Part shown: in pieces, positions 1,566 through 33,440 of the stretch
How positions within the stretch are numbered: position 1 is the first letter of the stretch
Layout: every line of letters begins with the position of its first letter
The notes under the pieces: generated by a model
What the model was told of the DNA's origin: nothing
The model's input: the letters and a program-made list of their open reading frames with translations, nothing else
The model's database searches: none
DNA from: Phycisphaerae bacterium
GTDB lineage: Bacteria; Planctomycetota; Phycisphaerae; UBA1845
Direction: 5' to 3'
Assembly (NCBI GenBank): GCA_029260215.1
Contig: JAJDDQ010000074.1
Coordinates: forward strand, 1-33,440
Length of the DNA stretch: 33,440 nucleotides
Translations under genes and position numbers: made by a program

Positions 1566-1754
1566 CGAATTCTCCTTTCTATTCGAGCCGCAAGGCCCAT
1601 CACCTGGTATTCCCGGTTATGATGATCTTGAGGCGCCGTGTGCTCTTGCGAACGACGGACCAGTCCACTAGACAGCCGGAAGGCACTGGAATCGAACACC
1701 TTTTAGCCACACGTTCGCCACACGGCGGCGGTTGTGATCAGAGAGCTGGCACTC

Positions 1755-7346: not shown

Positions 7347-7646
7347 ATGAAACTCGTTACGGAAGATGTACGCAAACACCTACCCGAGCTCTACACCACG
7401 GAAAACGACCAGGACCCGGTCGCACACGTGAAATACTTCACGCCATGGACAAGTTGGACGTGGTTCGCCACGGAATTCGACGGTGAGGACACGTTCTTCG
7501 GCTTGGTCGACGGCTCGGTCGAAGAGCTCGGCTACTTCAGCCTCTCAGAACTCCAGTCCGTTCGTGGCCCCGGTGGTTTGAGGGTGGAGCGCGACTTGTA
7601 CTTCAAACCTACACGACTAAGCAACCTACGGAGGGAACAACCATGA
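7347..7646 (+). CDS. DUF2958 domain protein
   Basis: A 99-aa protein with the compact DUF2958 pattern: an N-terminal helix (LVTEDVRKHLPELYTTEN), a VAHVKYFTPWTSWTWFATEFD block, FFGLVDGSVEELGYFSLSELQSVR, and an ERDLYFKP motif near the end. The family is carried by plasmids and integrative elements and is uncharacterised. The start at 7347 is chosen from three in-frame ATGs (7332, 7344, 7347), because GGAGGAA at 7334-7340 gives proper spacing only for the last one or two. It overlaps the methyltransferase gene by four bases (ATGA), so the two are translationally coupled. Confidence 0.85.
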   Translation: MKLVTEDVRKHLPELYTTENDQDPVAHVKYFTPWTSWTWFATEFDGEDTFFGLVDGSVEELGYFSLSELQSVRGPGGLRVERDLYFKPTRLSNLRREQP

Positions 7647-8404: not shown

Positions 8405-8478
8405 GAAATTGAAGGAGGGGTTCCTGCCTGGGAAGATCCCAGGTGGATATTTTCATGACACATGAAAGGAACCCCCCG

Positions 8479-15479: not shown

Positions 15480-15491
15480 GGAGATTTATCG

Positions 15492-16856: not shown

Positions 16857-16904
16857 GAACGCCCAAGTTAAAACGTGTCTCCGCGATGCGACTGGACAGG
16901 ATAA

Positions 16905-17786
16905 ATGGGTCGTCCAAAGTACATGCCTGCCGGAGCTTTTCGGTGGGGAAAGCGCTGGTTTCATGGCTACGTGTTCCTGTACCTGGTGCTCGACTCTATG
17001 CGCGATGCACGGGGCAATCTGAACATGATGCTCGAAAACCTACGCGGCGAATGGAAGGGCGAAAAGAAGCAAATTGAGCTGAGATACGACGAGTACGTCC
17101 CCGTGAGTCGCGGTGACACGATTGCTATTGTTGCGTACGCTGACCTCCAGGCGAATGACACCGAGTTCTTTTACTATGATTCGTTGCATAATCTGACGAG
17201 CGGAGAGGACTGCGGTATTGGAGGATTCTACGACTATCTGACGAAGAAAGGTGGCATGCTCTATATTGCTGGGCTATTCAGACCGAACAAGCCGCTGCGA
17301 CGATTCATTACCGCAAAGTCGGAGGAACTTCTTAGCGAAGCAAGAGAGTATTCGGAGGCGCTACTCCACCCCAACCTCCCTGATGCCGTGCCGTTAGACT
17401 TCGGATCGGAAATCCGGGTTTCCGCTGATTCTCAACAATTGTTGTCAGTGATGGAGGGATCGATTCTTCCTGAATGCCAGATGGGGTCCGTTCGTGTTCC
17501 AAAGCCGCCTCCGGGGAAGCTCTGGAAAATCACAGGAGGCCGCATCGTACTCGTTGATGATAGCGACGAGCGAGATAGGGACGATGCCAAGCATCCTCAT
17601 GCAGAATCCGCCCTCCCAACGAACAAGCATGAGTTGGCCATTCCGCCGGATGCAAAGGACTTCGTCGCCGGCCTGGAAGGCAAGCGGTTTGGCAAGGCGT
17701 TCCTCGGAAGTTTGGAGGTGCCGGAACCTCCGCCGGGAAAGATGTGGACCGTACGAAATGGGCAGATTGTTCTTGACGATGATTGA
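16905..17786 (+). CDS. unknown protein with duplicated PPPGK-W motif
   Basis: A 293-aa protein, not recognised. The first 150 residues appear globular. The C-terminal part holds two copies of a short module: VPKPPPGKLW-(K)IT-GGRIVLVDD at about residues 198-220 and VPEPPPGKMW-T-VRNGQIVLDDD at the very end, separated by a charged linker. The copies share PPPGK, Trp, Gly and the final IVL-DD. Such repeats suggest a small beta-hairpin binding module, perhaps anchoring to a partner or to cell-wall polymer. It follows the coiled-coil gene by 48 bp and is probably in the same operon. Start chosen at the first ATG of the conserved frame. Confidence 0.6.
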   Translation: MGRPKYMPAGAFRWGKRWFHGYVFLYLVLDSMRDARGNLNMMLENLRGEWKGEKKQIELRYDEYVPVSRGDTIAIVAYADLQANDTEFFYYDSLHNLTSGEDCGIGGFYDYLTKKGGMLYIAGLFRPNKPLRRFITAKSEELLSEAREYSEALLHPNLPDAVPLDFGSEIRVSADSQQLLSVMEGSILPECQMGSVRVPKPPPGKLWKITGGRIVLVDDSDERDRDDAKHPHAESALPTNKHELAIPPDAKDFVAGLEGKRFGKAFLGSLEVPEPPPGKMWTVRNGQIVLDDD

Positions 17787-17794
17787 TCAGGCCT

Positions 17795-17808
17795 GCGCGG
17801 CACCGCGC
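17795..17808 (+). terminator. weak terminator-like hairpin
   Basis: GCGCG-GCAC-CGCGC forms a 5-bp GC stem eight bases after the preceding stop codon, followed by a pyrimidine-rich but not T-rich tail. It may end the J-domain operon. Confidence 0.3.
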
Positions 17809-17822
17809 CCGCTCGTTCTCGT

Positions 17823-17842
17823 GTCATAATGTACCTTATGTC
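17823..17842. promoter_or_regulatory. palindromic site upstream of the recombinase
   Basis: GTCATAATGTACCTTATGTC is an imperfect 20-bp palindrome: it matches its own reverse complement at 16 of 20 positions. The 12 bases GTACCTTATGTC recur in inverted orientation at 17920-17931. It could bind the recombinase, an excisionase or a repressor. Confidence 0.5.
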
Positions 17843-17913
17843 CCGTCAAGAGTCGTTTCCCCCGGCAGGAAAAGCGAATGGAGCGGTGTCCAGGCCGATC
17901 GTAAGCAGCAAGA

Positions 17914-17948
17914 TTGCGTGACATAAGGTACCGTGTTACGCTTTCGTC
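17914..17948 (+). promoter_or_regulatory. recombinase promoter, leaderless type, with embedded site
   Basis: TTGCGT (17914-17919), a 17-bp spacer and extended -10 TG-T-TACGCT (17934-17942), then six bases and the ATG at 17949. The 12-base element GACATAAGGTAC, inverted copy of the upstream palindrome half, occupies 17920-17931 in the spacer, so a protein bound there would block RNA polymerase. Confidence 0.65.
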
Positions 17949-18920
17949 ATGCCTGTCGTAGAAACTGTTCCAGCGAGAATACAATCCGTGGAACTCGTTC
18001 CGGCGAACCAACGCGACGACCTCGCCGCCTGGTTCAACCTCTACATGGGCCTGGAGGCCGGCGCGAACGCCACGAACACCGTTTTGGCCAAGAAGCGTGA
18101 CCTGACATCGTTCCTTGATTTTTTCATGCTGGCCACCGGGTGCACGGAAGCCGACTTGTGGACACGATCGGTCACCGGGGACTTCCTCAAGGGTTTGCAA
18201 GCCAAGAAGAAGAGCCCCACCACCGTCAATCGGGTACTGGCAACGCTGCGCCATGCCGGCAGGTGGATCCACCAACATCGGCCATTTCTGGCCGGCAACC
18301 CGACGGAACGAATCTCGGATGTTCGCGTTGACGACCCCGAATGGAAAGGGCTGACGCCGATCGAGATCACACGGCTAAAGGCCGCGGCAGAACAACTGGT
18401 ATACGTACGCCGGCGGAGCAACCAGCGACCATTCCGGGATCTTGCGATCTTGTTCGTCTTACTCCGTACCGGTCTTCGTGTGTCCGAATTGCTATGCCTC
18501 GACCTCGACCAGTATCAGGGCAAGCACTTCATCAACGTGCAGCGAAAAGGCCGGAAAGTATCCCGCGCAGTGTTCTTGGCGTGTGAGGGACGCGAGGCGC
18601 TGGACGAATACTTGAAGAACGAGCGTGGTCCTGCCCCAGGACCGTTGTTCCTTTCTCGCTCTGGCGGCCGGCTTGCGAGGCAACACGTAGATGCTGCGCT
18701 CAAGGTCATTGCTCGCCAAGCGAATTCGCGATTGCCCGACATTCAGAAGATTAACTTGCACGCCCACGTTCTTCGGCATACTTGCCTGCGGAAGGCTGCT
18801 GAGAAGCACGGCGTTCAATACGCGATGGAGCTATCCGGCCAAAGCTCTGAAAGATACATTTGGCGATATGTTCAGCCGTCTACTGAACAGAAGGAGGCTG
18901 TACTCGACAATCTCTTCTGA
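17949..18920 (+). CDS. tyrosine recombinase/integrase
   Basis: A 323-aa site-specific recombinase, which cuts and rejoins DNA through a tyrosine-DNA link. An N-terminal SAM-like core-binding domain (about residues 25-110) precedes the catalytic domain. Visible active-site elements are R177 (TGLRVSEL), the beta-strand Lys region (VQRKGRKVSR), H273-x-L-R276-H277 (HVLRH), W305 and the nucleophile, Y307 or less likely Y303, in the RYIWRYVQPS segment. The length is typical of XerC/D-like and element-borne integrases. It lies between the structural module and the defence cassette, as expected for a mobile island. No attachment site could be confirmed by eye. Its mRNA is predicted to be leaderless. 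Confidence 0.92.
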   Translation: MPVVETVPARIQSVELVPANQRDDLAAWFNLYMGLEAGANATNTVLAKKRDLTSFLDFFMLATGCTEADLWTRSVTGDFLKGLQAKKKSPTTVNRVLATLRHAGRWIHQHRPFLAGNPTERISDVRVDDPEWKGLTPIEITRLKAAAEQLVYVRRRSNQRPFRDLAILFVLLRTGLRVSELLCLDLDQYQGKHFINVQRKGRKVSRAVFLACEGREALDEYLKNERGPAPGPLFLSRSGGRLARQHVDAALKVIARQANSRLPDIQKINLHAHVLRHTCLRKAAEKHGVQYAMELSGQSSERYIWRYVQPSTEQKEAVLDNLF

Positions 18921-18933
18921 TCTTGCGCGGTTT

Positions 18934-18951
18934 CTCGAAGTACGCTTCGAG
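18934..18951 (+). terminator. hairpin after the recombinase gene
   Basis: CTCGAAG-TACG-CTTCGAG forms a perfect 7-bp stem with a stable 4-base loop, 14 bases after the recombinase stop. There is no T-run, so it could be a weak terminator or a recombination-site arm. The remaining 200 bp before the DUF4338 gene show no gene. Confidence 0.35.
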
Positions 18952-19148
18952 CAGCGACGGTCGCAGATCCTACAAATGAGACTGCATCGGTGGAATACGA
19001 GTACGATATCGATCGCCACTCGCACTCTCGAGCCAAACGGCTAGCTGACCGGAGCCGGCGCAAATGATGAGCAGCGTCGTGGAATGAGTCTCGATCTAGC
19101 CGAGTTTGACATGATCGTTCGAAATAGAATCGAGAGGTAGGATCGAGC

Positions 19149-20363
19149 ATGCGTAAGCGATCTCAGATAAAGGGCGAATCAGCTAAGCAAGCGTCATCGC
19201 GTGCACCCGCGCCTACCAGACATTCGCTCCGGTGCTCAGTTCACGCTCATCTTAAGAAAGCTGGATTCTCAAGGAATTGTAAGGGCTACTTCATCAAGGG
19301 ACACCTGTCAAAGCAGAAAGTACGCGACCTTCATTCAGAGCATCGGCACGAGGTGATTCGACGACACGAAGAGTTCATTAGGATCGAAGGGCCGAAACTA
19401 GCAGAGCACTTTGCGACCGGCCTGCAAGTTGATCCCGTAGCCATAGACCCCGAACTTGTAGAGGTTACTGCGGATTCGCTAGAATCACGCTTATTCAGGT
19501 TTGCCTGCCTGCTTTGGTCGGTTCCCGTTTCACAGGGTTTTGGGCGTCGGCTCCGCTTCCTCGTCCGAGATCGTCACAATGGGAAACTGATGGGCCTTTT
19601 TGCTCTGGGCGATCCGGTATTCAATCTCTCCGCACGTGATAACTGGATTGGTTGGACCAATGAGATGCGACTAACGAGGCTCGTCCATGTGATGGACGCA
19701 TATGTCGTAGGATCACTGCCCCCTTATTCGTACTTAATCGGTGGCAAACTTGTCGCAGCGTTGATGGCAAGCAATGAGGTAAGACGCGTCTATGAGCGAA
19801 AGTACATCGGGCTGCAAGGTGTCATAAGCAAAAAAGAGAATCGGGCGCGCTTAGTGCTGCTTACCACCACGTCAGCCCTTGGACGTTCCTCAATCTACAA
19901 TAGGCTCTCCATACCGGACGGGCCGAGGTTTCTCAGACTCGGTGCGACAAAGGGGTTTGGCCATTTTCATCTCTCCGGATTGGTATTCGAGAAAATGCGA
20001 AAGTACCTGGAGGCAAAGGGGCACCCCTATGCGTCTGGACACCGTTTTGGCATGGGCCCCAACTGGAAGCTCCGAGTTGCTCGCACCGCGTTGGAGGATG
20101 TTGGTCTTGATGGAAACGGGATCTTGAAGCACGGCATCGAACGAGAGGTCTACGCGATTCCTCTTGCACGAAATTGGAAGCAGATTCTAATGGGAGAGCA
20201 CCAGAATGTGCGTGCACTCACGCTCTCTGCCTCTGAGATATCGGCCTACTGTATACAGCGTTGGATGGTACCACGGGCTGAACGTGATAAGCGATACAGG
20301 AGATTCGCCCGTCGTCGGATCATGGATTGCTTTGCGAACGGCGGCCCTGGGTCTGCGTGGTAA
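19149..20363 (+). CDS. druA-like: DruA-like DUF4338 protein
   Basis: A 404-aa protein with the DUF4338 signature, the domain of DruA from Druantia type I anti-phage systems. Diagnostic segments are FFALGDP-type LMGLFALGDPVFNLSARDNWIGW (about 150-175), YVVGSLPPYSYLIGGKLVAALMAS (about 185-210), and LVLLTTTSALGRSSIYNRL (about 235-255), followed by a GFGHFHLSGLVFEKMRKYLEA block. The biochemical role of DruA is not established to my knowledge. The length fits DruA. GAGGTAGGA lies upstream of the ATG. Its stop overlaps the start of the next gene (TAATG), giving a tight operon. DUF4338 proteins also occur alone and beside transposases, so defence is inferred from the neighbours. Confidence 0.85.
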   Translation: MRKRSQIKGESAKQASSRAPAPTRHSLRCSVHAHLKKAGFSRNCKGYFIKGHLSKQKVRDLHSEHRHEVIRRHEEFIRIEGPKLAEHFATGLQVDPVAIDPELVEVTADSLESRLFRFACLLWSVPVSQGFGRRLRFLVRDRHNGKLMGLFALGDPVFNLSARDNWIGWTNEMRLTRLVHVMDAYVVGSLPPYSYLIGGKLVAALMASNEVRRVYERKYIGLQGVISKKENRARLVLLTTTSALGRSSIYNRLSIPDGPRFLRLGATKGFGHFHLSGLVFEKMRKYLEAKGHPYASGHRFGMGPNWKLRVARTALEDVGLDGNGILKHGIEREVYAIPLARNWKQILMGEHQNVRALTLSASEISAYCIQRWMVPRAERDKRYRRFARRRIMDCFANGGPGSAW

Positions 20364-23275
20364 TGGATGTGCATCTTGACAACTGGCAGGCACGCCTTGC
20401 GAGGCACTTCACGGAGATCCTGAGCTGTCGCCGCGTCGAAAGGCCCGACCAGCCGGTTTTTGCGCTTGAGCACGGCCTTGACCTGCAGGAGGTGCAGGCG
20501 CTCGCAACTTGTGTCCGCGCCCATGTTGCGCGTTGGGCACCGTTACGAAAACACCCGCTCCCCTGGATCGTCTACGCCGCGGAAATTGGCTACGGCTACT
20601 CGGGTGACGAATACTGGCAGACTTTCGAGAAGAAAACGCCCGGTTGGACGGACCGCGGCGATCGCTACTGGATCCGCGAGTGCTACCAGTCATTCCAAAA
20701 GGGCTACGGCGGCGCAACGCCATCCGGTGCTTGGGCCAAACACTTTTCGATCATCTGCTGGCCGATAACCCACGCTATCCTCCCGAGGGATCTACAGCGT
20801 CAACTTGCGCGCATCCTGTACGAACTGCGACACTCGTTTTCTGCAGAGCTCCTTGAGACACCACCAACGCTAGGCGAGTTTATCGCCGCCCGAAGCTGGA
20901 ACGCCACATCGCGGTTTCAGAACCTTGCGCAGGACACACAACTCGTAGGGCAGATCGCAGCCGCCCTTCTTCTTGAGGGTAGGTACGGCACGGGCAGCTT
21001 GATTCATCCGGCGGCACTCCAGAGGATCGGCGCGGACTTGGACCGCGAGCGCCGTGCGCGCGAATGGCTTCGCGGAGCTCGCCGGTTTGCAAGGGAGCGT
21101 GCGAACGTTCGTGGCCTTTCGCTGGGCCGTGGCGCCAAATCCGGTCTCATCCGTCGACCCGAAGAGGCGCGGGCCGAGGTCGCCGCACTGGGAATCGAGC
21201 CGCGACTCGTGCTGCGACCAACAGACCCGCAAAGGGCTTCCTGGGAAGTGTCGCTCGAGATCCCGGACCTCTCCCAACTCCTGTTCAGATTCCCACGGAC
21301 TCGCGACATCCTCAAGGGATCTCGTTGTGTTGTAGCCGGTACGTCGGGCAGGCCCCTAGCGCGAGGACGGTGCCTGCACGGGGCGCAGCGCGTCACGCTC
21401 GTCCGGTGGCCTCTTGCCGACGAGGTGTTGCTCCGGTTTGAGCAAACGGAACCGCAGCTTGAGTACCTTCTGCGCGCAGAGTGCCTCCTCCGCCCTGGAC
21501 CCACATGGCTCTTCAGGATTGCCTCCGATGGCCTTGCCTATGAGTGTCGAAGCCTACGGGTTCGACCGGGCGAGCGGTATATCATGGTTGGCACTAACCG
21601 GCCCATTGACGCGAACGACCGGACCCGCCCAATCGACCTGCGGTGCGATGGAGTGCATGGTACGATCCTCGATCTTCCCTCAGCGCTCACCGCAGACTGG
21701 GAGGAAACTCTTGAGTGCCTCGAACTTGGGTTAGCGAAGACCATCGAGGTATGGCCCGCAGGATTGGCCGCGGTTGTCTGGGATGGAGAAGGACACGGTG
21801 AATGGCTCGCATCCGAGCGTCCGTGTCTCGCAATTCGTACAGACCACTCCGTCGCTTCTCTCCTCGTCTCGATGGGGAACATCTCGGAGCGCTCATTAGA
21901 GCTTACCTCGGTCGTGCCTGGTGAGCCCATCTTCGTGGAACTGCCACAATTGCCGGTCGGCCTTCATACCGTCCGAATCTCCACTCGAAGCAGCTTGGCG
22001 GGAGAGGTAGAGCCTCTCGGCGATCTCGACATAGTGATGCGCATCCGTGAGGCCCGACCGTGGTTGCCGGGTGTTAGTCCCCACGGCCCCCTGCTCGTGC
22101 AGTTGGATCCCTCCGCGCCAACACTCGAGCAGCTATGGGAGGGTCGTGTGGAGGTCGCGCTTCGCGGCCCTGTGGGGCGACGTGTAGTGTGCAAGATTTC
22201 GTTGCTCGATGCGGATACGGGCGTACCTCGTGTGACCAAGCGACTGGAGCCGATGAGACTCCCAGTCACGCCCGCAGACTGGAGAAGCCACTTCGAGACG
22301 CATTTCCGGAAGACGCCGCGGGCACGACGTGCCTACGACACCGCTCGGGCATGCGAGATCGAATTCACTGCTGAGGAACTGGGCGCGTTTTCCATCCAGT
22401 GCGAACGTGAGTTCTCGCCCCTTCGGTGGGCGGTCCGACGATCTGGACAAGACCAGATTGCCCGTCTCCTCGACGACAGCGGAGACACCAACTCGCCTAC
22501 GGTTGCGCGACTGAGCTTTGAAACGCCCTGCGTAGAGGAGCCGCTTGAGTACGCCCCTGCCTACATCGTCCCCAATACCGGCGGACTCTTCGTTGCCCGC
22601 AAAGGGGAACTCACGGCGGCTGTCATCATTCCACCGCCAGAACCTGAGTTGGGCAACCTGTGTTGCAACCCGCGCACCGACGAGCAGATTCGTTCGGTAG
22701 ACTCCGTTATCCGCGCTCTCGCAATCTCTCGACTTTGGGCCCAGGCGAGGGTACTGGGTGATCTTCTCTCAGCGATACGCCAGCGAGATGTCTTGCTCGC
22801 ACTTACGCGTCACGTTTTCCTGCTAGTTGCCGGCGAGAACTGGACGAAGGCGGAGGCTGCCGCATGCAACGGGACAGCTGGGATCGCCGTTCTAGAACAA
22901 GCGGTGTCGAGACGGCGCGAGGACGCCGAAATCGGTGCGGCGCTGAGAGGCCAGTACGTTGCGCTCGCGGGAGCGACTCGCGAAGAGCGAATCTGTGCAA
23001 TCGCGGAACTCGCGGCGAAGCATCTCGCGATTGGGAGAGGGGCAGTTTGCGAGGAAGATCCCGAGTGGCTCTCAGAACTAGCCTTGAGACTTGCGAGTGA
23101 TCCCGGCGGAGTCGAAGTGTGGGCTGGTCGAGGATTCCGCGTTGGAATTAGGCGCCTTCTGGAAGAATTGCCAACGCTAGCGCGGGCAGCTAGGTTCCTG
23201 GTCGTCGCGACGGACCTTCATCTTGAGTCGCGCGCGGCATCCCGCGAGATCTATGCAGGATGGGAGTGTACATGA
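20363..23275 (+). CDS. large unknown protein of the Druantia-like cassette
   Basis: A 970-aa protein that I cannot assign to a family. The N-terminal 230 residues are the most structured and look conserved: PWIVYAAEIGYGYSGDEYWQTFE, a PGWTDRGDRYWIRECYQSF block, AWAKHFSIICWPITHAILPRDLQRQLARILYELR, and ARSWNATSRFQNLAQDTQLVGQIAAALLL. Residues 260-650 look beta-rich, possibly Ig-like or carbohydrate-binding-like repeats. The last 230 are helical. No P-loop or nuclease motif is visible. Start at 20363, overlapping the druA-like stop; earlier in-frame codons overlap that gene. Position suggests a counterpart of the large unrecognised subunits of Druantia (DruB, C, F, G or H), but homology cannot be judged by eye. 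Confidence 0.75.
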   Translation: MDVHLDNWQARLARHFTEILSCRRVERPDQPVFALEHGLDLQEVQALATCVRAHVARWAPLRKHPLPWIVYAAEIGYGYSGDEYWQTFEKKTPGWTDRGDRYWIRECYQSFQKGYGGATPSGAWAKHFSIICWPITHAILPRDLQRQLARILYELRHSFSAELLETPPTLGEFIAARSWNATSRFQNLAQDTQLVGQIAAALLLEGRYGTGSLIHPAALQRIGADLDRERRAREWLRGARRFARERANVRGLSLGRGAKSGLIRRPEEARAEVAALGIEPRLVLRPTDPQRASWEVSLEIPDLSQLLFRFPRTRDILKGSRCVVAGTSGRPLARGRCLHGAQRVTLVRWPLADEVLLRFEQTEPQLEYLLRAECLLRPGPTWLFRIASDGLAYECRSLRVRPGERYIMVGTNRPIDANDRTRPIDLRCDGVHGTILDLPSALTADWEETLECLELGLAKTIEVWPAGLAAVVWDGEGHGEWLASERPCLAIRTDHSVASLLVSMGNISERSLELTSVVPGEPIFVELPQLPVGLHTVRISTRSSLAGEVEPLGDLDIVMRIREARPWLPGVSPHGPLLVQLDPSAPTLEQLWEGRVEVALRGPVGRRVVCKISLLDADTGVPRVTKRLEPMRLPVTPADWRSHFETHFRKTPRARRAYDTARACEIEFTAEELGAFSIQCEREFSPLRWAVRRSGQDQIARLLDDSGDTNSPTVARLSFETPCVEEPLEYAPAYIVPNTGGLFVARKGELTAAVIIPPPEPELGNLCCNPRTDEQIRSVDSVIRALAISRLWAQARVLGDLLSAIRQRDVLLALTRHVFLLVAGENWTKAEAAACNGTAGIAVLEQAVSRRREDAEIGAALRGQYVALAGATREERICAIAELAAKHLAIGRGAVCEEDPEWLSELALRLASDPGGVEVWAGRGFRVGIRRLLEELPTLARAARFLVVATDLHLESRAASREIYAGWECT

Positions 23276-24360
23276 GACGCTTGACCACCATGGAAGTCCA
23301 CGCCAACGGAGTCGCGGAACTTGGGCTGGACTCTGCTGCGCTCGACCTCACATCGGTCGAGGCTATCGCTGGCGCTCTACGCAGGGCGGCGAGTTTCCTC
23401 TGCCCGTGCGCAGCCGCAACGTTGGTGCGCGGCGTAGTGCGTCCGCTGCGGGGGATGGTGGACGACCTCGATGTGGTCAAGGGTTTGGCCGCAGATACGC
23501 TCGAGGCGATGATCGCCCACGGGGACATTCATGAGAACCGCGAACTCAATGATGATCCGACCAACATCTCAACGACGTTTCTGTACGCGGCACCCGCTAG
23601 TTTCGTGTCGCGACAGAGCGGCGCCACGATCTTGATTGGCATAGCATCAGATCAACTCTCGGCACTTCCCGATGACCTGGAGGCTCGCGTCGAGTACATA
23701 GCTCACGTACGACGCCTGAGCCCGGTTCCGGGCGAGGATCTGCGTGCGGAACTCACCCAACTCGAACTCATCGAACTCCCTTACGATCGGTGGCTCAAGG
23801 CACCCAAAGCTGAGCCACCAGCTCAGCACGTCTTGTCCCTTGACCAGTTGCTCGATGCGGCGCAACCGTCACGCGACATCCCTGGTCTTGCGTTGCTGGA
23901 TCCAGAGCGACCTGTTCGCTACTACCGCGGACGGTGGGTGGAACCGCGATCACAGTCAGGACGCTTCGTCGCGCGCAGGAGCCAAGCCTACGGCGCACAC
24001 TTATGGTGCTACGTGCAACTCAGCAACGGACATCCCGAGCGACTAATAGACTTCCCAAATTCTGGCAGCCGTTGGCGTGGCTGCGATGAGGCGTGGCGCC
24101 TCCAACTGGCGATCGATGCGCAGCGAGGGGAGCCACAGCGATTCAGAGTCCGTCCGGGGCCCGGAAGTTCGGCCGTGCTTGAGTTATTCTCGCCAGTGCC
24201 AATGTGGGCGAAGCGGCGCTGGGATGCGGTTGGCGAGGCCATTCCCAGATCGGGATGTCTATTCGCCTATCGGTTGCCGGCGGCTGAACTCGATGAGGAG
24301 TTGCTGTTCGCCCATAACGCGTTGTGGCTCAACGAACTAACTGAGACTTCAGATAGATAA
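23272..24360 (+). CDS. unknown 362-aa protein of the Druantia-like cassette
   Basis: A soluble protein with no recognised domain. Residues 30-90 may form a winged helix ([15 protein letters not shown], then [26 protein letters not shown]). The middle has [25 protein letters not shown], and later come [38 protein letters not shown] and a C-terminal [22 protein letters not shown]. It begins with an ATGA overlap with the preceding gene and GGGAG five bases upstream; an ATG four codons earlier is possible. It is followed after 16 bp by the helicase gene. The tight packing says it belongs to the same system, perhaps as an adaptor or a specificity subunit. Confidence 0.7.
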
Positions 24361-24376
24361 TGAAGAGGACGCAAAA

Positions 24377-27300
24377 ATGTCTCTGACGATCGGAGAGACC
24401 AACCTTCAACTACATCGCGCGCTGCGAGACTACATCGAGGCCACGTATCACGTGAGCCACCCGACACTTGTTGCGCAACGTCGGCAACTGCTCAATGAAC
24501 CTGGCGTGATTTCCCAGCGCCCATACTTGGAGAGCACTCCCCGCTACAAGACCAGCGTGGCCTTCGGAGATCTCGGACTCGACGCACCTGTGCTTGACAT
24601 CTTTTCAGCAGCCTCAAAGCCGCAAGGCGACCTCGATCTCCTCATCCACGATCCGCCTTACCAACATCAAGCCATCTCTACGAAGCTGGCGCTCGTGGAC
24701 GGGAGAAGCCTGATCGTCATAACCGGTACCGGGTCTGGGAAGACGGAGTGCTTCTTGCTCCCCATTCTCGGCAAGCTCGCGCGCGAGGCCGAGAGCACCG
24801 GCGAGACGTTCGGCGCAACGCCTGCGGTACGTGCAATCCTGCTATACCCAATGAATGCCCTCGTGAACGATCAACTCGGGCGACTCCGACTCATGTTTGG
24901 TGATCCGAGAGTCGTTTCGAAGTTCACGGGCTGGTCTGGGAGACCCGCTCGATTCGCGCGGTACACGAGCCGTACCCTGTATCCGGGCGTACGCAACGCG
25001 GCGAAGGACCAAGATCGATTGGCCCCGATTGGTAAATACTACGTCCAGAACTTGGAACTCGCTGCCGGACCCTCATCCCCGCAACAGTCGGCAGCGGCTG
25101 CGCTCGTGCGCGAGTTGAAACATCGAGGGAAGTGGCCAGCGAAGCCCGACCTTGTTGGCTGGTACGGAAAGAAGGGAACGCGTTGGAGGGACACTAAGAG
25201 CGGTGGCTTCAAGAGATGTGTCACACTCGCGAGTGACGCCGAACTTTTTACACGCCACGAGGTTCAAGACGCGCCTCCCGACATTCTAGTTACAAACTAC
25301 TCCATGCTCGAGTATATGCTGATGCGCCCACTTGAGCGGCCGATCTTCGACCGTACGAGGGACTGGCTGCGGACGAGTCCCAACGAACGATTCCTGCTCG
25401 TCATCGACGAGGCGCATCTCTATCGAGGAGCCGCCGGTGCGGAGGTGGCGCTCCTTATTCGTCGTCTCCGAATGCGACTTGGGATCCCAGCAGACCGGCT
25501 CCAGGTGATCTGCACGAGCGCGAGCTTCAAGGATGCGGACTACGCAATTAAGTTCGGCGCACAACTCACGGGCAAGGATCCGGCCGACTTTAGCAAGGTT
25601 CAGGGCGATCTTCTTCTACGCTCTGGTGCCTCGGCCGGGAAAACTCAGGACGCGGAAGCGCTAGACGCGATCGATCTGCGGGCGTTTTACGAATCGGACA
25701 CAGAAGGAGCCCGGCTCACGGCAGTCGAATCGTTCCTGCAGTATCGGAGTATCAAGCCCCCGTGGCAGTTGCAACGAGCGCTCTATGACGCCCTCGTCTC
25801 CTTTGCGCCGATGGCACACCTCATCAACATGACGATGGTTGAGGCCCTGCCAGTCGATACGCTCGGCGAGGCGTTGTTTGATGGCGCCCAGCAGGATGTT
25901 GCTGCGCGGGCTGTCACAAAACTCATCGCTCTTGGCAGCGTTGCGCGGCGAGATCCCACCGAGCCGGGCCTGCTGCCGTGCAGGGTACACTCGTTCCACA
26001 GAGGCCTCGCCGGGCTTTGGATTTGCATGGACCCCCAGTGCGTACGTCTTCCTGAAGCGGAACGTGGAGGGCCATCCGGGAAGCTGTTTAGCCAGCCGCG
26101 AGACACTTGTGATTGCGGATCTCGGGTGCTAGAGCTCTTTACCTGCCGCAAATGCGGTACAGCGTATGCCCGCGCCTACACCAACTACGTGGACGATCCA
26201 AGCTTCCTGTGGCCGGAGGCAGGTGGCGCCTTCCGCACACTCTCGGGTCTGTTCGACGAACTCTCGCCAATTGACCTGCTGCTTGAGAAGCCCAACTTCC
26301 GTGACGCCGCGGAGCCGGCAGAGTATGACTTGGTGACCGGACGCTTGAACCCCCACGTGCTTGGACCCCGGAATCGTCAAGTCTATTTGCGCGGCGGACG
26401 TTCTGCCGCGCCTGACGCTGATGACGAACCGCGAACCGCGGCACCCGGTGAATTCAGGCCGTGCGCTGTCTGTGGCGAGAGCGCCGCGTTCGGCCGCTCC
26501 TCTGTTCAGGATCATCAGACGAAAGGTGACCAGCCGTTCCAGGCGCTAATCGCAAAGCAAATCCAGGTGCAGCCCCCAAGCCCCGTCCAGGCGACGACAT
26601 TGGCTCCGCTGCGAGGACGGAAGGTCCTCATCTTCTCGGATTCTCGACAGACGGCTGCGCGGCTCGCGCCCAACCTCCAGACGTATTCGACGCAGGACGC
26701 ATTGAGGCCGCTCATTGTTACCGGATATGCGCGACTTTCGCGCGTGCCGATCGTCGCGAACCTAGTGTCGCTTGAGGACCTCTACCTTGGCGTATTGATT
26801 GCCGCGAAGGATATGGGAGTCCGGCTTCGCCCCGAGCTAAAGGTTGGCGAGAGCTTCCAAGACGAGCAAATCGTAGAGGAGGCGGTTAGGAGTGGCGTGC
26901 TCACCAGAGACACGGATCTACTTCAACTTCTAGTGCGGCTGAGAGCGTCAGCACCTCCGGAATCATTGCTTCGGGCGATCACGAAGTCGCTAGCGGACCG
27001 GTACTACGGCTTGGAGTCGCTCGCGCTCGCCTCCCTTGTCGAGCGATTTGAACATTCCCCCAAAATCCAAGCACTGCCGGATGTCCCTGGTTACGCGCAG
27101 TCGCTGGACGAGAAACTCGGCCTTGCTCGCGCGTGGCTCCGCTGCTGGAGTCGCCCGGGGCTCTGGTTGAGCCGCATGCCGCCTGCGTGGTGGCTTCGAG
27201 ACATCCAGCCGCACTCGGGGAAGTTCAAGAGCATGCATCGACTCCTGCGCGACAAGCCCGCGCGGTCGCTCTTCGAGAAAGAGTGGGTGCCGCAGCTCTT

Positions 27301-29923
27301 GGCTCTTTTTGCGCAGCAGATCGCACCGGGCAAGTTTAGGCTGAAGGGCGGCGAACTATCGCTCGCGATTGCTGGATCGTGGGCCTATTGCCAATCCTGC
27401 CGGACCGCGCAGCGGCCGTTCCCCGGAAGAACGACGTGCGTCAATTGCGGCCAGGATACGGTGGCGCCGATCGACCCAGATGTGGACCCAGTCTTCGTTG
27501 CTCGGAAGGGTTACTACCGTGCAAGCACCGTAGAGGCGCTACGGACGCCCCCGACGGTCCCGATGGCACTCATCGCGGCGGAGCATACTGCGCAGCTTAA
27601 CACGGCCCAGGCGAGCGAGGTCTTCTCAAAGGCGGAGGAGCACGAGCTACTCTTCCAAGATGTGGATCTTGGGCCAGACGAGACCGGACGCGATCGGCCA
27701 GCGATCGACGTTCTGTCCTGCACGACCACGATGGAAGTCGGCATCGACATCGGCACCCTTTCGGGCGTCTCGCTCCGCAACATGCCGCCGGCTCGCGCGA
27801 ATTACCAGCAGCGCGCTGGTCGTGCTGGCCGGCGTGGAAACTCTGTAGCGACCGTTACGGCGTTTGGTAGTGCTGACAGCCACGACGAACACTACTTCAC
27901 GCATCCTGACGAGATGATCCGTGGCGCGGTTGATGATCCGACGCTTACGCTCGATAACCCCGAGATAGCCCGACGTCACGTCACGGCCTACCTGCTTCAG
28001 CGGTACCACCAAGCGAAGCTCCCAGAGATCACGCCGGAAGATCAGCCCCATCTCTTCGCTGTCCTCGGTACCGTGTCCGACTTCAAGAACCCGAGTATGG
28101 TGCTGAACCGGCCCGACCTGGAGCAATGGCTGCGGTCCAACGAACCGGCGCTCAAGGCTGACGTGACAGCGTGGCTCCCTGCCGAAATCCCCAGCGCAGA
28201 GCGCAAGAAGCTTCTCGATGCACTCATAGAGCGCACGTTAAGGCCAATCGACGAGGCTATCGACTATGACCCCGGCACTTCACCTAGTGCGGGCGGAAAA
28301 GGCGACGAGACGGCGGAAGCGGAGGCAAGTGCGGCTACAAGCCTCGAGGCGCCAGACGAGGAGGGCGAGGAGCGACCAGGGAGGGATCCAGCCTCTGAGA
28401 ATCTCTTGGATCGACTACTCTACAAGGGCGTGCTACCGCGGTACGCTTTCCCGACCGACGTCGCAGCTTTCCACGTGTTCGATCCTGACCAATCAACTCG
28501 ATTTCGTCCGGCGTTTCGATTCACACCGTCCCAAGGACTTCCTGTCGCGCTCTCACAATATGCTCCAGGCAAGGAGGTTTGGATCGGCGGCAAGCTCTGG
28601 ACGTCCGGAGCCGTCTACTCGCCAATGCGGAATGATCGCTATCGAGCTTGGCAATCTCGACGGCTCTATTACGAATGCAGGTACTGTCACTACGCACGAA
28701 CGACCACGCTCGATGAGGGTGTCAGGGGGGAAACCAAGGACTGCGAGGCCTGTGGTGGTGTGGGAACTTTCGGCCCTGCGACGCATTGGCTGCGCCCACC
28801 TGGGTTTGCACACCCCGTTAGCAAGGAGGAGGGGACCTCGCCAGACGACATGCCAGTGCGAAGCTATGCGACGCGGGCCAAACTGACGATGCATACACCC
28901 TCAGACGAGGCGAAGTGGACGAGACTCAACGAGCACCTCCGCGTGTACTATACCAGGCAACATCTCCTCGTCACAAACCGCGGTCCTCGCGAGGAAGGCT
29001 ATACATATTGCACGAAATGCGGCCTCATTGAGCCAACGGCGCTGCCGAGGGGTGTCGTAGGGACAGCACACCGTAAGCCGTTTCCCGATCTGCGGGACAG
29101 CAATTGCCCGGGCGGCGGCGCGACGAAGGGGCTCGTTCTCGGAACCGACTTCATCAGCGATGTGCTCTTAGTGTCCGTCAGCGTGAAACCACCCGTCACG
29201 CTAGTTCCTAGCCTTCTCGCAACTGACGTCGCGCTACGCACCATCAGCGAAGCGCTCACAAAGGCCGCGTGTGCGAGGCTAGAACTGGAAGCGAACGAAC
29301 TTCAGGCCGAGTACCGACCGGCGCTCACGCCCGCGGGGCGCGATGGCCGTGAGGCGGAGATCTACCTGTACGATACGCTGCCGGGCGGCGCCGGCTTCGC
29401 ACAACGGGTCGGTCGGATCGGGCTGGTAGTATTCGAGGAAGCGCTGCGGATTCTGGAGGAGTGCCCCGAGAACTGTGATCGCTCGTGTTACCGCTGCCTG
29501 CGCAGCTACAAGAACAAGTTCGAGCACGACCTACTCGATCGACACATTGGCGCGAGTCTTCTTCGGTTCTCTTTGACAGGCCAAACGCCAACGCTCGATG
29601 CTGGACGCCTTGAGCGTTCCACCGATCTCCTCTTCCTCGATCTGGAGCGTCATGGTGTTGATGGCCTCAGTCTGGAGCGCAACGTTTCGGTATCAGTTCC
29701 CGGGTTAAGCGGAGTCGTGGCTCCGATCCTGGCCACCAACCCGCGTGGCGCGCAGTTCGTCATCGGCCTACATGGACCGCTGACGCCGGATGATCCGTCC
29801 GACGAGGGACTTCGCGACCTTAAGGAATTCTCCGCGGCGCTCCCCGTCATCCTCGTCGATGAACTGGTCGTGCGACGAAACCTTCCGAGCGCCACCGCGA
29901 CCCTGCTTGGGAGGCTGGGCTAG
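24377..29923 (+). CDS. druE-like: DruE-like giant DEAH helicase with DUF1998-type C-terminus
   Basis: An 1848-aa superfamily 2 helicase. Motif I is TGTGSGKT (about residues 116-123), motif II DEAH (about 344-347), motif III TSASF, motif [17 protein letters not shown], motif [11 protein letters not shown] and motif [13 protein letters not shown] (about 1143-1153). Several cysteine pairs (CRKCG; CQSC with CVNCG; CRYC with CEACG; CTKCG) look like zinc ribbons. The C-terminal [11 protein letters not shown] (about 1664) and [19 protein letters not shown] (about 1703-1721) are hallmarks of DUF1998. This arrangement is that of DruE, the one gene shared by all Druantia types, and is related to DrmA/DrmB of DISARM. 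It probably uses ATP to translocate along foreign DNA. AGAGGA lies upstream of the ATG. Confidence 0.88.
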
Positions 29924-29942
29924 GCCCGCAGGAGGTCAATTG

Positions 29943-31169
29943 ATGGCTTCGCACGAGTGCTCATCATTTCGAACCGCCAACCCACCGAAAGTATGGCCGG
30001 CTGCGCCAGCCGAGATGACAGTGACAACACTAGCCGAGATTGAGGCATGTCCTCGTCGCTGGGCCTTGCGTGCAGCCGAGTATGCCGACTTGTGGGATGG
30101 GCGCGGGTATCCGCCTCGTGTGCAGCTAGCTACGCTTGCGGGTACGGTCGTGCATGCTGTCCTAGAAAAAATAACGATGGAGTTCGTTCGGGCTGGATGC
30201 CCGTCGGTCAGAGATGCTGCGGCGATCGAGGTTATGAAGAATCTTGGGGGCTACTCCAGAGTCGTAAGTGATTGCATCGACCGGGTGCTCGGCCGTCTGG
30301 CGAGAAGCCCGAGAGCGACAAACCTAGTTGACTACGCTTCCCGATCGCTCCGCGCACAGATTTCAGATCTTCGTGCGCGGGCCCAGATGATGCTTTGTCG
30401 CGTGCAACTGCCGCAAACCACTCGCAGCGAAACGCGGGGGCACCGGCCAATTCCGCGCCATCCATTGACAGCCGGCGTGTTTCCTGAGATTGAGTTCCGG
30501 GCGACGCAGTTGGGTTGGAAGGGAAAGGCCGATCTCTTCGTGCTTTCACCGGACGCCTGCGAGATTATCGACTTCAAGACTGGAGCGCGGGACGAAAAGC
30601 ATTGCTTTCAGCTTCAGGTCTATGCTCTGTTGTGGAGTCGCGACATTGAGTTGAACCCGAACCGAAGGCTCGCAGATCGATTGGTCCTTAGGTACGGTAG
30701 CGATGATGTGGAAGTCGATGTCCCGTCCGAAACGGCGATACATGATCTCGAACGTCAAATTGTTGCGCGCCGAGACGCCGCTCAGCAGGACGTGTCACAG
30801 CGTCCGCCAGAGGCGCGACCAGACCGTCACCGCTGCCGGTACTGCGAAGTACGGCATCTCTGCGACACATATTGGACGAGCGAGACGCAGCGTCGAATGG
30901 CAGGGCAGGATCGTAATCGCCGATTCACGGACTTTGAAGTTACCATCACTGCGCCACATGGTTCATCAAGTTGGGACGCAACGGTCGAGTTATCCCGTGA
31001 CGTGCCGGCTGGAAAACTTGCCCTTGTGAGGACCAGTGTTGAAGAGCAGTTCCGCGCCGGGGACCGGCTTCGCATTCTCGACGTGGCCCTCACAGTGGAT
31101 GAGGAACACGAGGCAGAGCCTGTGGTCCTCACGATTGGAACCCTCAGCGAGACTTATGCCGTTCCGTAG
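29943..31169 (+). CDS. Cas4/AddB-like PD-(D/E)XK nuclease with iron-sulphur site
   Basis: A 408-aa nuclease. Visible motifs are CPRRW (C36), GTVVHAVLEK (H71), GKADL (D197), EIIDFKTG (E207, D210, K212) and the QLQVYALL helix. These match the RecB-type active site (H, D, D-x-K, then Q-x-x-x-Y). C36 together with C298, C301 and C307 (CRYCEVRHLC) gives the four-cysteine pattern that holds a 4Fe-4S cluster in AddB and Cas4. The last 80 residues form a beta-rich domain, perhaps OB-like, for nucleic acid binding. A strong AGGAGG lies upstream of the ATG, 19 bp after the helicase stop, so it is the last gene of the cassette. It probably degrades the DNA unwound by the helicase. Confidence 0.85.
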   Translation: MASHECSSFRTANPPKVWPAAPAEMTVTTLAEIEACPRRWALRAAEYADLWDGRGYPPRVQLATLAGTVVHAVLEKITMEFVRAGCPSVRDAAAIEVMKNLGGYSRVVSDCIDRVLGRLARSPRATNLVDYASRSLRAQISDLRARAQMMLCRVQLPQTTRSETRGHRPIPRHPLTAGVFPEIEFRATQLGWKGKADLFVLSPDACEIIDFKTGARDEKHCFQLQVYALLWSRDIELNPNRRLADRLVLRYGSDDVEVDVPSETAIHDLERQIVARRDAAQQDVSQRPPEARPDRHRCRYCEVRHLCDTYWTSETQRRMAGQDRNRRFTDFEVTITAPHGSSSWDATVELSRDVPAGKLALVRTSVEEQFRAGDRLRILDVALTVDEEHEAEPVVLTIGTLSETYAVP

Positions 31170-31247
31170 AGAGTTGCTTCACATGGCATCTGACACAGCC
31201 TTTTTCGAGGATTCGGACAGTGTAACTGAGTCGGTGATTGTACGCGC

Positions 31248-31949
31248 TCATTTCTGCCGACAGTTGGTAACGCATCGCGTCGAATTCATGTTCGAAAAGC
31301 CCTCATTAATGCCCACTCTGTCCTGGACGAATGGGGCTAGCGGCTTGCGGTGCAACCGCAAGTACGAATATGGCACTGGCTCGTAGCCGGCCTCTTGCCG
31401 AGCCCGATTTACGGCCCCTAGGATATTCAGCAGTTGCCGCCGCACAGGCGCGTATGGCTCGAACCGAATCCGCTCGAACTCGATTCGGAGGCCCTCGGCC
31501 GATCGGCCGAGCGCGAGGTCAAGACAGTAACTCTTCAAGAGGCTGTATTCAACCGGAGCGATGCGCACCGACGCATGCCGCTTTCGATCACTTCCCAACC
31601 GATACCCGATGCGATACCCGGCGAAGCGAATTGCCCGGCGCCTCACGTCGCGGATCTTGCTTGCCTCGTCCTCGAAGAATCTGTGCCGGCCCTTGGTGGC
31701 AATCAGAATGAATGTTCGCTCGTAACGAAGGTACTGCATGTTTGCCAGCCCATGGCGTTTTCGGCGAGCCCGGGTCCACTTCGAAATCGCGATGTCGTAC
31801 TTGGCGATCAGCTTTGCATCGACCCGAGTCGGATCTTTGCGCTCCGGAATCGTACCCATGACGTAGAACCAGTAACCGTTACTAATATACGAAACGGCAA
31901 GCTGCTGAACGAATCCCGCGACAGATGTGGTAACGATTCGATACTCCAT
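31248..31949 (-). CDS. conserved hypothetical protein, planctomycete type
   Basis: A 233-aa basic protein. Recognisable stretches are VQQLAVSYISNGYWFYVMGTIPERKDP (residues 15-41), KWTRARRKRHGLANMQYLRYERTFILIATKGRHRFFEDEA, RFAGYRIGYR, and a C-terminal FEPYAPVRRQLLNILGAVNRARQEAGYEPVPYSYLRLHRKP. I recall this pattern as a frequent unassigned protein in planctomycetes, often near mobile elements. Its Arg/Lys content fits DNA or RNA binding. The ATG at 31949 has a strong GGAGGA site; a much longer frame upstream lacks signals. It converges with the nuclease gene, leaving 78 bp without a clear terminator. Confidence 0.75.
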   Translation of the reverse strand: MEYRIVTTSVAGFVQQLAVSYISNGYWFYVMGTIPERKDPTRVDAKLIAKYDIAISKWTRARRKRHGLANMQYLRYERTFILIATKGRHRFFEDEASKIRDVRRRAIRFAGYRIGYRLGSDRKRHASVRIAPVEYSLLKSYCLDLALGRSAEGLRIEFERIRFEPYAPVRRQLLNILGAVNRARQEAGYEPVPYSYLRLHRKPLAPFVQDRVGINEGFSNMNSTRCVTNCRQK

Positions 31950-32052
31950 CTCTATCCTCCTCCATGTACTACAAAGGGTGGGAGCTGTTTGAGGCACAAC
32001 TCCCGGAAGCCTTTCAACCTTGTTGGTGCACGACCAACCTCTAGCATTCGAC

Positions 32053-32262
32053 TCAGCCGCAGAATCCGAGCAATGCCTCGATCTCGTTTTCTGTTGGCTG
32101 TCGGCCGATGCCTTCGACGTACAACTCGTCGAGCCGTCGCCGAATCTCCTCCGGGAGATCGACCGGCCCAATCCAACGTGATGCCGCCTGGCCGAACGAC
32201 TCAACATAGTCAGCCGCTGGGTCGCCTATCACGTGTCCGTCTTTCGTTTTCCACCATCCCAT
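32053..32262 (-). CDS. small conserved protein
   Basis: A 69-aa protein: MGWWKTKDGHVIGDPAADY at the start, then an acidic helical half (LPEEIRRRLDELYVEGIGRQPTENEIEALLGFCG). I recall small planctomycete proteins opening with MGWW-x-T and a GDxPAD motif, of unknown function. AGGATG precedes the ATG at 32262. It is 103 bp upstream of the 233-aa gene on the same strand and may be co-transcribed with it. A nested inverted repeat lies just upstream, in its promoter region. Confidence 0.7.
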   Translation of the reverse strand: MGWWKTKDGHVIGDPAADYVESFGQAASRWIGPVDLPEEIRRRLDELYVEGIGRQPTENEIEALLGFCG

Positions 32263-32310
32263 CGTTCATCCTTTCATGTATCCTTCATTGCACCGTCTCC
32301 AATCCTCAAC

Positions 32311-32376
32311 GCGAGCGCTACTACAGCTACTGTTTTCTTGTATTGCAGTAGCCCAATTCATAGCGGTAGCGCTCGC
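32311..32376. repeat. nested inverted repeat
   Basis: GCGAGCGCTAC (32311-32321) pairs perfectly with GTAGCGCTCGC (32366-32376), and inside it GCTACTG (32326-32332) pairs perfectly with CAGTAGC (32346-32352). The two stems could form a cruciform or an RNA hairpin with an internal loop. It lies about 50 bp upstream of the 69-aa gene on the minus strand. It may be regulatory, or it may be the left part of the hairpin-rich region that continues to 33170. Confidence 0.55.
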
Positions 32377-32429
32377 AAATCCTCCGGCGGAATCGGCGCG
32401 CACGCCGACTGTCCGCCGTCATTCCACTG

Positions 32430-33170
32430 CCAAAAGACGCGCCACCTCCCGATGGCTCCTCTTTTGGCCGCCGTATCATCCTTTCCAAGGAAACCGGTAG
32501 CCGAGGGGCACGTTGGCCCCTCGACCTCCGATTACGTCATTGAGATGGGTTAAACCCGTCGTCTCTTTCGTCGTCGCATCTGTGCCCGGCACCACCCGTT
32601 GACACACGAACGAACCGCCACTGCCCTGCAGCGGACATCGCCCGGCTCCCGCCGGCTTTCTACTCAAGACACACTCCCAGACTTCCGCGTTTGAATCACC
32701 TGCCTGACAAACAGCAGGCACCGGGCACCACCCCGGCAGCGAAAGTCCTTCCCCGGTTAGTCATGGTCTTCGCGCAATCGGTCACGTCGCTTGCCTCGGC
32801 CGGTATGTCTCGGGCTCCCGCCCGAGCATACTTTCCGTCCGTGAAACACGGACGATTTCGCCCTACGAAAACAGAAGCTCGGGTTACTGTCCCGGCTCGA
32901 AACTTTCTAGCGCGGTGTGGCACCGTCTCCGATTGCACTTACTCGCAAGGGCTCCATACCCCTTTCATCGTTGAGCTTTTCACCGTGGATCATTTGAATC
33001 CATCGCCGAGCCGTGTCATTGGCCCGATCCCGCCTGTCACCAGGCGGGAGCTCCCGACGCGAGCACACGTTGAACGACCGTAACGAGCTTTTCACCCGAT
33101 TGGTCCGCACAAGGCGGACTTTGGATCGAACCCCGCAGGGGGATTTGTTCACCGAAATGAACGCACCACC
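32430..33170 (-). ncRNA. hairpin-rich structured RNA region, possible group II intron fragment
   Basis: About 740 bases without a credible gene but with a dense series of perfect hairpins that, read on the minus strand, are capped by GNRA tetraloops. Examples are CCCGCCTG-GTGA-CAGGCGGG (33029-33048), CTCGGGC-GGGA-GCCCGAG (32809-32826), CCGGC-GGGA-GCCGG (32642-32655), and at 32430-32467 a two-part stem closed by GGGA. Others include CGTCCGTG-TTT-CACGGACG (32836-32854) and CGAGGGGC/GCCCCTCG near 32500. GTGCG, the usual 5' end of group II introns, occurs at 33166-33162. These are marks of a large folded RNA such as intron domain I, but no matching domain V lies downstream, so it may be a truncated intron or another structured RNA. 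Confidence 0.45.
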
Positions 33171-33337
33171 TTTGACCATAACGGCCCGCCATGCGGCGGG
33201 TCTGTCCCGGTCGCCCTCATTCAGAAATGTGCTATGGGATAGAATGCAGGTATTACTCGCCTGGTGGGCGGATTACTCCTACAAGCCTCCCTCGATCTGC
33301 GCAAGCCGTAGGGTAAGGAGCCAGCGAGCCCGTTCTC

Positions 33338-33362
33338 GACTTGTACTCAGCTGAGGCACAAG
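33338..33362. repeat. hairpin 3' of the intron domain V
   Basis: On the minus strand, ACTTGT pairs with ACAAGT and CTCA with TGAG inside, 35 bases downstream of domain V. Its position would suit intron domain VI, which carries the branch-point adenosine, although no unpaired A is clearly placed. Confidence 0.35.
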
Positions 33363-33397
33363 TTTCTTCAAGAATGCTTTTCCAACACCTCCCCCCC

Positions 33398-33433
33398 AAA
33401 CCGGACGTGACAGTTTCCTTGTCATCCGGCTTT
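33398..33433 (-). ncRNA. group II intron domain V (3' part of an intron entering from the right)
   Basis: On the minus strand the 36 bases fold as domain V: AAAGCCGGA pairs with TCCGGTTT, a two-base CG bulge lies on the 3' strand, TGACA pairs with TGTCA, and a GGAAAC apex provides a GAAA tetraloop. The AGC catalytic triad and the CACGTCCGG sequence fit the strongly conserved consensus. Domain V is close to the 3' end of an intron, so the intron body and any reverse transcriptase gene would lie beyond 33440. Confidence 0.75.
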
Positions 33434-33440
33434 CCAGTAG

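Follow-up and report, generated by a model that had tools for sequence, protein, structure and literature searches.

Passages of the papers cited here give DruABCDE as the composition of Druantia type I (PMC7251935, PMC13316683) and DruE, DruF and DruL as that of type IV (PMC8565338). In type III, according to passages of PMC13192584, DruE bears an active PLD nuclease domain whose cleavage is needed for Druantia's own defense, and DruH, which has three immunoglobulin (Ig)-like domains, is the likely sensor. For type I and II DruE, Bell et al. predicted the C-terminal Vsr domain to be inactive, and YprA-family relatives such as MrfA work in repair (both in passages of PMC12458937). Mechanisms are given for type III, and not for type I, in passages of the open-access literature. 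A gene link between Cas4-like (pfam12705) nucleases and YprA-DUF1998 helicases was reported in 2017 (in a section of PMC5704561). Here, we analyzed a five-gene cassette at positions 19149 to 31169 of a 33,440-nucleotide (nt) stretch of DNA from a Phycisphaerae bacterium (assembly GCA_029260215.1, contig JAJDDQ010000074.1; the whole stretch is hereafter called the window). We consider it probable that this cassette is an intact, uncatalogued type I variant of the form druA-X-druD-druE-nuclease, in which a large protein, X, would serve in sensing and an exchangeable nuclease would provide cleavage in trans.

Gene content and recurrence of the cassette

The cassette consists of five intact, tightly packed plus-strand genes in the order druA-X-druD-druE-K. 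With refined starts, the stop of druA (19149 to 20363, 404 amino acids) and the start of X (20363 to 23275, 970 amino acids, in the druB/druC slot) share position 20363 within TAATG, a 1-nt overlap, and X overlaps druD (23272 to 24360, 362 amino acids) by 4 nt at ATGA. The druE gene (24377 to 29923, 1,848 amino acids) follows druD after a gap of 16 nt, and K (29943 to 31169, 408 amino acids) follows druE after a gap of 19 nt, with the Shine-Dalgarno-like sequence AGGAGGTC (29930 to 29937, plus strand) just before it. Although the K open reading frame (ORF) opens upstream at 29790, we favored the start at 29943 because of the Shine-Dalgarno sequence and because similarity to homologues begins in keeping with it; given this start, K probably does not overlap druE. 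The layout is as the original prediction had it, namely, five co-directional genes that overlap or lie within 20 bp of each other.

Profile searches identified the first gene as DruA1 (PADLOC PDLC00002, 466 bits; Pfam PF14236, the DUF4338 family, 288.8 bits against a cut-off of 27), the third as DruD1 (PDLC00010, 387.7 bits over residues 5 to 361 of 366; PDLC00012, 346.4 bits), and the fourth as a full-length DruE1 (PDLC00013, 1936.8 bits over residues 2 to 1843). DruE is a YprA-family SF2 helicase with DEAD, Helicase_C and MZB domains in Pfam, its DUF1998 (MZB) match scoring 52 bits against a cut-off of 24.2. The DruE2 and DruE4 models reached at most 639 bits and the DrmA models 40 bits on this protein, compared with 1937 for DruE1. 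A search of PDB sequences returned 14 rows for DruE, among them 9tu7, 9wae and the YprA structure 6znp, and nothing for DruD, K, or DruA. In a structure model of DruD (predicted local distance difference test [pLDDT] score, 91.7), the N-terminal third looks winged-helix-like, with many weak VIA rows at Z 5 to 6 over residues 1 to 140; across the whole model, Foldseek gave no match at an E value of ≤0.001 and VIA a Z of at most 8.4.

By these profile matches, DruA and DruD are cassette parts shared with type I, and three of the five type I proteins are present in the window. Because DruA1 and DruD1 occur together with a full-length DruE1, the cassette belongs with type I and is not a hybrid of types. 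The original prediction had rightly seen a DUF4338 DruA-like first gene, a DruE-like helicase with a DUF1998 C terminus, and a gene set that matches none of the types it listed. It was mistaken in calling the 362-residue protein unknown, since this is DruD1, and of its proposal of a new subtype or a hybrid, only the first part stands, probably as an uncatalogued variant of type I.

The five-gene order recurs in other genomes, so the arrangement is unlikely to be a chance one. One genome of the same class as that of the window (G352) carries all five genes in the same order at 45 to 72% identity, and among 392 Planctomycetota genomes, X was found at full length in two (G000 and G352) and as a 69-residue match in a third (G188). 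Scanning genome contigs of 84,980 species with the X alignment (pattern plus tblastn) yielded 43 loci, which together with the window, two plasmids, one further genome (G555), and five IMG/VR contigs made up the 52 loci that we read. They are labeled Planctomycetota, Bacillota, Gemmatimonadota, Acidobacteriota, Omnitrophota, Hyd24-12/Fermentibacterota, Dehalococcoidia, Pseudomonadota, and Myxococcota, about nine phyla, and some of the cassettes lie on plasmids. We directly observed the complete run of druA, X, druD, and druE (A-X-D-E) in 34 of the 52 loci, 33 of them tight and one (L026) with a gap of 729 nt between druD and druE; X-D-E was present in 42, and A-X-D-E with either K or a second nuclease, N (see below), in 25. 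Intact examples are the A-X-D-E-N cassette of Cucumibacter marinus (L028) and the five-gene one of Planctomycetes bacterium syqfu (L020). Where the contig leaves room, DruA stands beside X in 40/49 loci, X beside DruD in 42/44, and DruD beside DruE in 42/44. X itself led to the majority of these loci (the 43, the window, L005, and L006), which makes adjacency to X a conditional measure and biases the counts.

A survey seeded with DruE1 covered 954 genomes (369 Gammaproteobacteria, 385 Alphaproteobacteria, and 200 Gemmatimonadota, going by the titles of L038, L028, and L021), of which six other than the seeds scored above 840 bits. X is present in five of the six, namely, G555, G914, G954 (cut off within DruE by the end of its contig), G1247 (whose contig is that of L017), and G1330; a weaker hit, G647 (343 bits), is of another kind. 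X is therefore the usual partner of DruE1 in this small sample, which held no certain Escherichia coli-type DruABCDE locus as a positive control. In IMG/VR, a scan with the single X protein found nothing and a DruE-based scan gave four X-bearing contigs, so our counts are lower bounds.

Several loci depart from the common layout. In L036, L040, L043, L048, and L059, DruA does not directly precede X and is instead encoded on the opposite strand or beyond the nuclease gene; in L061, a longer, different DruA-like protein is encoded upstream. Extra DNA or genes separate druD from druE in L090 (4227 to 13996), L026 (13959 to 14688), and L048 (13905 to 15726). DruE is split into two ORFs in L090, and a doubtful X frame of 4,249 amino acids runs to the contig end in L022.

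Protein X in the druB/druC slot

X of the window matched nothing in PADLOC, Pfam, or NCBIfam, in agreement with the original prediction of an unknown 970-residue protein, and a PDB sequence search returned a single chance-level row (E value, 0.77). When 39 X proteins, the window's and 38 aligned homologues, were compared with PADLOC, no DruB, DruC, DruF, DruG, DruH, or DruL model matched at an E value of ≤1, and as these models were silent, we rejected X as any of these proteins. Stray rows, none of them Dru, included a DpdF model, which matches 3 of the 39 (best E value, 0.00038), and a HamB model, which matches one (E value, 0.054).

An AlphaFold2 model of X built from the 39 sequences had a pLDDT of 83.6 and a predicted TM-score (pTM) of 0.44, and because of the latter value we trust the domains more than their arrangement. 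The predicted layout comprises a helical N-terminal part, a middle of Ig/fibronectin type III (FnIII)-like beta-sandwiches (residues about 458 to 760 are beta-rich), and a helical C-terminal part. The best Foldseek rows were complement-type sandwich and FnIII chains (E value, 3.9e-6), and VIA matched residues 459 to 569 at Z 9.4 (root mean square deviation, 3.8; 99 residues aligned). By analogy with DruH, X is possibly an Ig-domain sensor.

Could X instead be a very divergent DruB-DruC fusion, and the cassette an ordinary type I system with an accessory nuclease? X does occupy the B/C slot between DruA and DruD, in company with A, D, and E proteins of type I, and the PADLOC DruB and DruC models, at 504 and 626 positions, add up to a length not far from that of X. 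The DruB model PDLC00004 was absent from the five cassette proteins at an E value of ≤0.1, but it matched 0 of 17 genomes and was silent in all controls too, so it does not by itself prove absence. The DruC model PDLC00006 gave no match in the cassette and, among its listed hits, none for the contig of the window; it weakly matches 14 of 17 genomes and all 14 controls, as expected of a coiled-coil-rich model, in contrast to the helices around beta-sandwiches predicted for X. With none of the 39 X proteins matching either model at an E value of ≤1, we regard a DruB-DruC fusion as unlikely.

Material for a direct comparison came from two type I-like loci without a recognized DruA, L065 (1996 to 12624) and L066 (4579 to 15226), which encode proteins of about 538 and 924 amino acids, a DruD-like protein of about 337 amino acids, and a DruE1-like helicase. 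In PADLOC, L066 scored 1875.6 bits for DruE1, 67.2 for DruD1, and 16 for DruC1, with no DruB and no DruA seen. Aligning X with its B-like and C-like proteins in hhalign gave a probability of about 0.1%, from single sequences and for a locus that is only partly type I, and we rejected these proteins as counterparts of X. The method is insensitive here, as it was also negative when DruD was compared with the D-like protein of L066, even though PADLOC calls both DruD1. A search with L065 DNA did not turn up a true E. coli type I locus, and the L066 C-like protein had no plasmid match. A cytosine methylase and a restriction enzyme are encoded upstream in L066.

X-like proteins scoring 118 to 123 bits were found in three further loci, namely, L008 (8239 to 12018, Azospirillum), L009 (9989 to 12955, Rhizobium), and L010 (9992 to 13030, Leisingera), where their genes lie near DUF1998/YprA-type helicases and NERD proteins. 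Mostly the N- and C-terminal parts align, with a weak middle in L008. Both L009 and L010 have an SNF2-type helicase after the X-like gene, and the YprA helicase of L009 is DrmA plus a separate MZB protein. These similarities suggest a superfamily of X common to Druantia-like and DISARM-like systems; X-type Druantia would therefore link two YprA-based branches of immunity.

The downstream nuclease and the DruE C terminus

K matches the PD-(D/E)XK nuclease family PF12705 (70.2 bits), the DruK model PDLC00059 (48.3 bits, residues 231 to 364), and Cas4 models (up to 38.1 bits); three PADLOC models for DruK match K or another DruE-linked nuclease. Residues H122, D248, K263, Q274, and Y278, as well as C87, C349, C352, and C358 (numbered in the 459-residue ORF), are intact in all nine K sequences, and position 261 is D in eight and E in one (L062). 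We take the motif residues to be RecB-type catalytic motifs and the four cysteines to be a putative iron-sulfur staple, as in Cas4 and AddB. K is thus the Cas4/AddB-like nuclease that the original prediction had recognized.

A nuclease gene directly follows druE in 31 of the 41 loci with room after it. This gene is K in 9 loci and N in 22, never both, and all 31 genes run in the same direction as druE and lie within 300 nt after it. N is a protein of about 655 amino acids with helicase-like AAA matches, and its alignment (21 rows from 20 loci) shows an E-x-K motif and a Walker A motif in 20/21 rows. The label NERD for N comes from one weak Pfam row (E value, 0.0082; L034) plus PADLOC NERD+UvrD rows. 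Some N sequences are pieces, of 80-odd amino acids in L027 and L054 and 349 in L034; that of L032 is ended by the contig and that of L043 is in two ORFs. In L017 (identical to L089; positions 19584 to 20838), a weak K-like stretch of 33 residues follows druE, with an insertion element about 160 nt downstream, and K was possibly lost there to insertion.

The kind of nuclease tracks the phylogeny of DruE. We built a quick maximum-likelihood tree with a midpoint root from 40 cassette DruE proteins longer than 1,700 amino acids and 2 type I-like ones, leaving out the broken L006 and contig-truncated loci; L048 and L062 form long branches. K was confined to one clade (9 of 11 members; support, 100), and N to another (21 of 28; support, 95). 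For each nuclease, none of 500 label shuffles was as clustered. The original prediction had held a dedicated nuclease to be no part of the Druantia types it listed. The nuclease is indeed a regular partner, but DruK and the link in that section of PMC5704561 are precedents. Its suggestion of what an ordinary Druantia variant would look like leads to a divided answer, as the 970-residue protein matches no Dru model and the nuclease is regular, not occasional, within its clade, but the 362-residue protein is DruD.

Searches for K and N scored only a few candidates per genome. Among 246 Planctomycetota genomes drawn, only that of the window had K at an E value of ≤1e-10; the draw did not include the K-bearing G352. 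IMG/VR held K in two cassette contigs already seen, plus one weak match of 65 residues, and K was not found in the plasmids searched. Apart from the weak match, no K outside a cassette turned up in these sets, and the DruE1 survey added a further K-bearing locus, L090, to the nine. K therefore appears to be bound to the cassette. Outside A-X-D-E, N comes directly after DruE-family helicases in plasmids of Alisedimentitalea (L092, 507 bits) and Shinella (L093, 481 bits). In L092 (3553 to 13968), the order is DruF-DruE2-N, followed by a cytosine methylase and an MvaI/BcnI-type enzyme, and in L093 (1427 to 11962), a helicase is followed by N. An IMG/VR contig, L071 (9950 to 16935), encodes a DruE-like helicase and then a nuclease that matches DruK at 40.5 bits.

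These data bear on whether the nuclease is a separate passenger, with a defense or repair role of its own and no more than the operon in common with the other genes. A passenger would suit the difference in protein kind between K and N, the absence of both from 10 of the 41 loci, and the presence of N beside helicases of another type in the two plasmids. A passenger would not readily account for 31 genes in the same place and orientation, for a nuclease type that follows the DruE clade, or for the near confinement of K to cassettes, and we find this explanation improbable.

In DruE itself, the Walker A string is identical in 40/40 homologues, DEAHLY is present in 39/40, and the four cysteines of the zinc cluster are invariant. 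Past the zinc cluster, in residues 1726 to 1848, the charged residues R1744, D1755, R1758, E1829, and R1833 are invariant, and no Lys or His is conserved in 85% of the homologues. From this sequence conservation, the C-terminal nuclease domain of DruE appears dead. With an apparently dead domain in DruE and a live nuclease gene beside it, cleavage would be supplied in trans.

Proposed working, surroundings, and known systems

We infer an anti-phage function in which the cassette proteins would form a complex. X would sense an infection product through its Ig/FnIII-like domains, the role likely played by DruH in type III, and DruD and DruA would help to place the complex on DNA. DruE would then load onto phage replication intermediates that contain single-stranded DNA and unwind them, and the downstream nuclease, K here and N in the neighboring DruE clade, would cut them in trans. 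More broadly, and only as a tentative proposal, DruE-family helicases with a dead nuclease may be a platform on which the sensor (DruB/C, X, or DruF) and the cutter (K, DruK, or N) are exchangeable, with the sensor module of the X superfamily also serving DISARM-like systems.

Several observations weigh against the sensing and trans-cleavage scheme or against a fixed cassette. DruA does not adjoin X in 9 of 49 loci, and the sixth strong hit of the DruE1 survey, G891, holds D-E without X. Both K and N are missing from 10 of the 41 loci whose contig leaves room downstream of DruE, so a nuclease is not strictly required, unless it is encoded elsewhere or was lost. Ig/FnIII-like sandwiches are very common and their fold reveals no function, the Foldseek TM-scores of X were below 0.25 in the rows shown, and the DruH models match none of the 39 X proteins.

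The surroundings of the cassette hint at mobility. A tyrosine recombinase gene (window positions 17949 to 18920; Phage_integrase, 65.3 bits) ends 228 nt before druA, and with an integrase adjoining it, the cassette may belong to the cargo of some integrated element. Neither a tRNA nor a convincing flanking repeat was seen around the integrase and cassette; a repeat search of positions 17500 to 33440 gave a single 23-nt pair at 78%, which we judged to be chance. Farther upstream, a TraG/TraD-like coupling ATPase (11266 to 13359; TraG-D_C, 36.1 bits) hints at conjugative or plasmid-like surroundings. The window also encodes an AAA-TPR protein (1734 to 4310), a DUF932-like protein slightly below the Pfam cut-off with a phrog_1362 match of 58 bits (5939 to 7027), a DNA-methylase-like stretch (7643 to 8323, 29 bits), a Mutator-family transposase (8443 to 9723, 106 bits), and, ahead of the integrase, three successive plus-strand ORFs of 329, 454, and 293 amino acids without a Pfam or PHROG match (14490 to 17786).

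A main role in plasmid or conjugation control or in DNA repair, and not in defense against phages, would fit the integrase and ATPase in the window, the plasmid-borne cassettes, and the repair role of MrfA-type YprA relatives (in passages of PMC12458937). We think it less probable than either alternative above, as the helicase matches DruE1 over its whole length (1937 bits) and the spread of the cassette over phyla, with the DruE proteins of the window and of a Bacillota record 82% identical, resembles that of defense systems.

Taken as a type I variant, the cassette has its putative cleavage gene apart from DruE; type I DruE is predicted to lack an active nuclease (in passages of PMC12458937). 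X represents a large uncatalogued family, with dozens of loci in about nine phyla and no model in the PADLOC release used, and with that model missing, annotation could label these systems as incomplete type I. PADLOC DruD1 models cover the DruD of the window, and the makers of PADLOC may therefore have met such loci.

We found no description of an A-X-D-E cassette in the open-access literature, the scope of our search, which leaves aside subscription papers, supplements, and most preprints. Compared with types II and IV, none of the five cassette proteins matches DruF, DruG, DruM, or DruL. Unlike DISARM, the cassette has its helicase and DUF1998 in one protein, and there is no methylase among its five proteins; the DISARM-like or DruE-like loci L008 to L010 resemble it in a weak homologue of X near a DUF1998/YprA helicase and NERD. 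L092 has DruF-DruE2-N and lacks A, X, and D. The PADLOC DruK systems and the gene pair in PMC5704561 share with the cassette a pfam12705 PD-(D/E)XK nuclease beside a DUF1998 helicase, but K matches DruK weakly, and the section of PMC5704561 on the link makes no mention of DruA, DruD, or X. Like type III, the cassette pairs a DruE-family helicase with a large partner for which Ig-like domains are predicted; it differs in that X has no DruH match and in that the nuclease is a separate gene, as opposed to a domain of type III DruE (passages of PMC13192584). With type I, the cassette shares DruA1, DruD1, and a full-length DruE1 in the same relative order, and it differs from type I in having a single X, with no match to DruB or DruC, and a nuclease gene after DruE.

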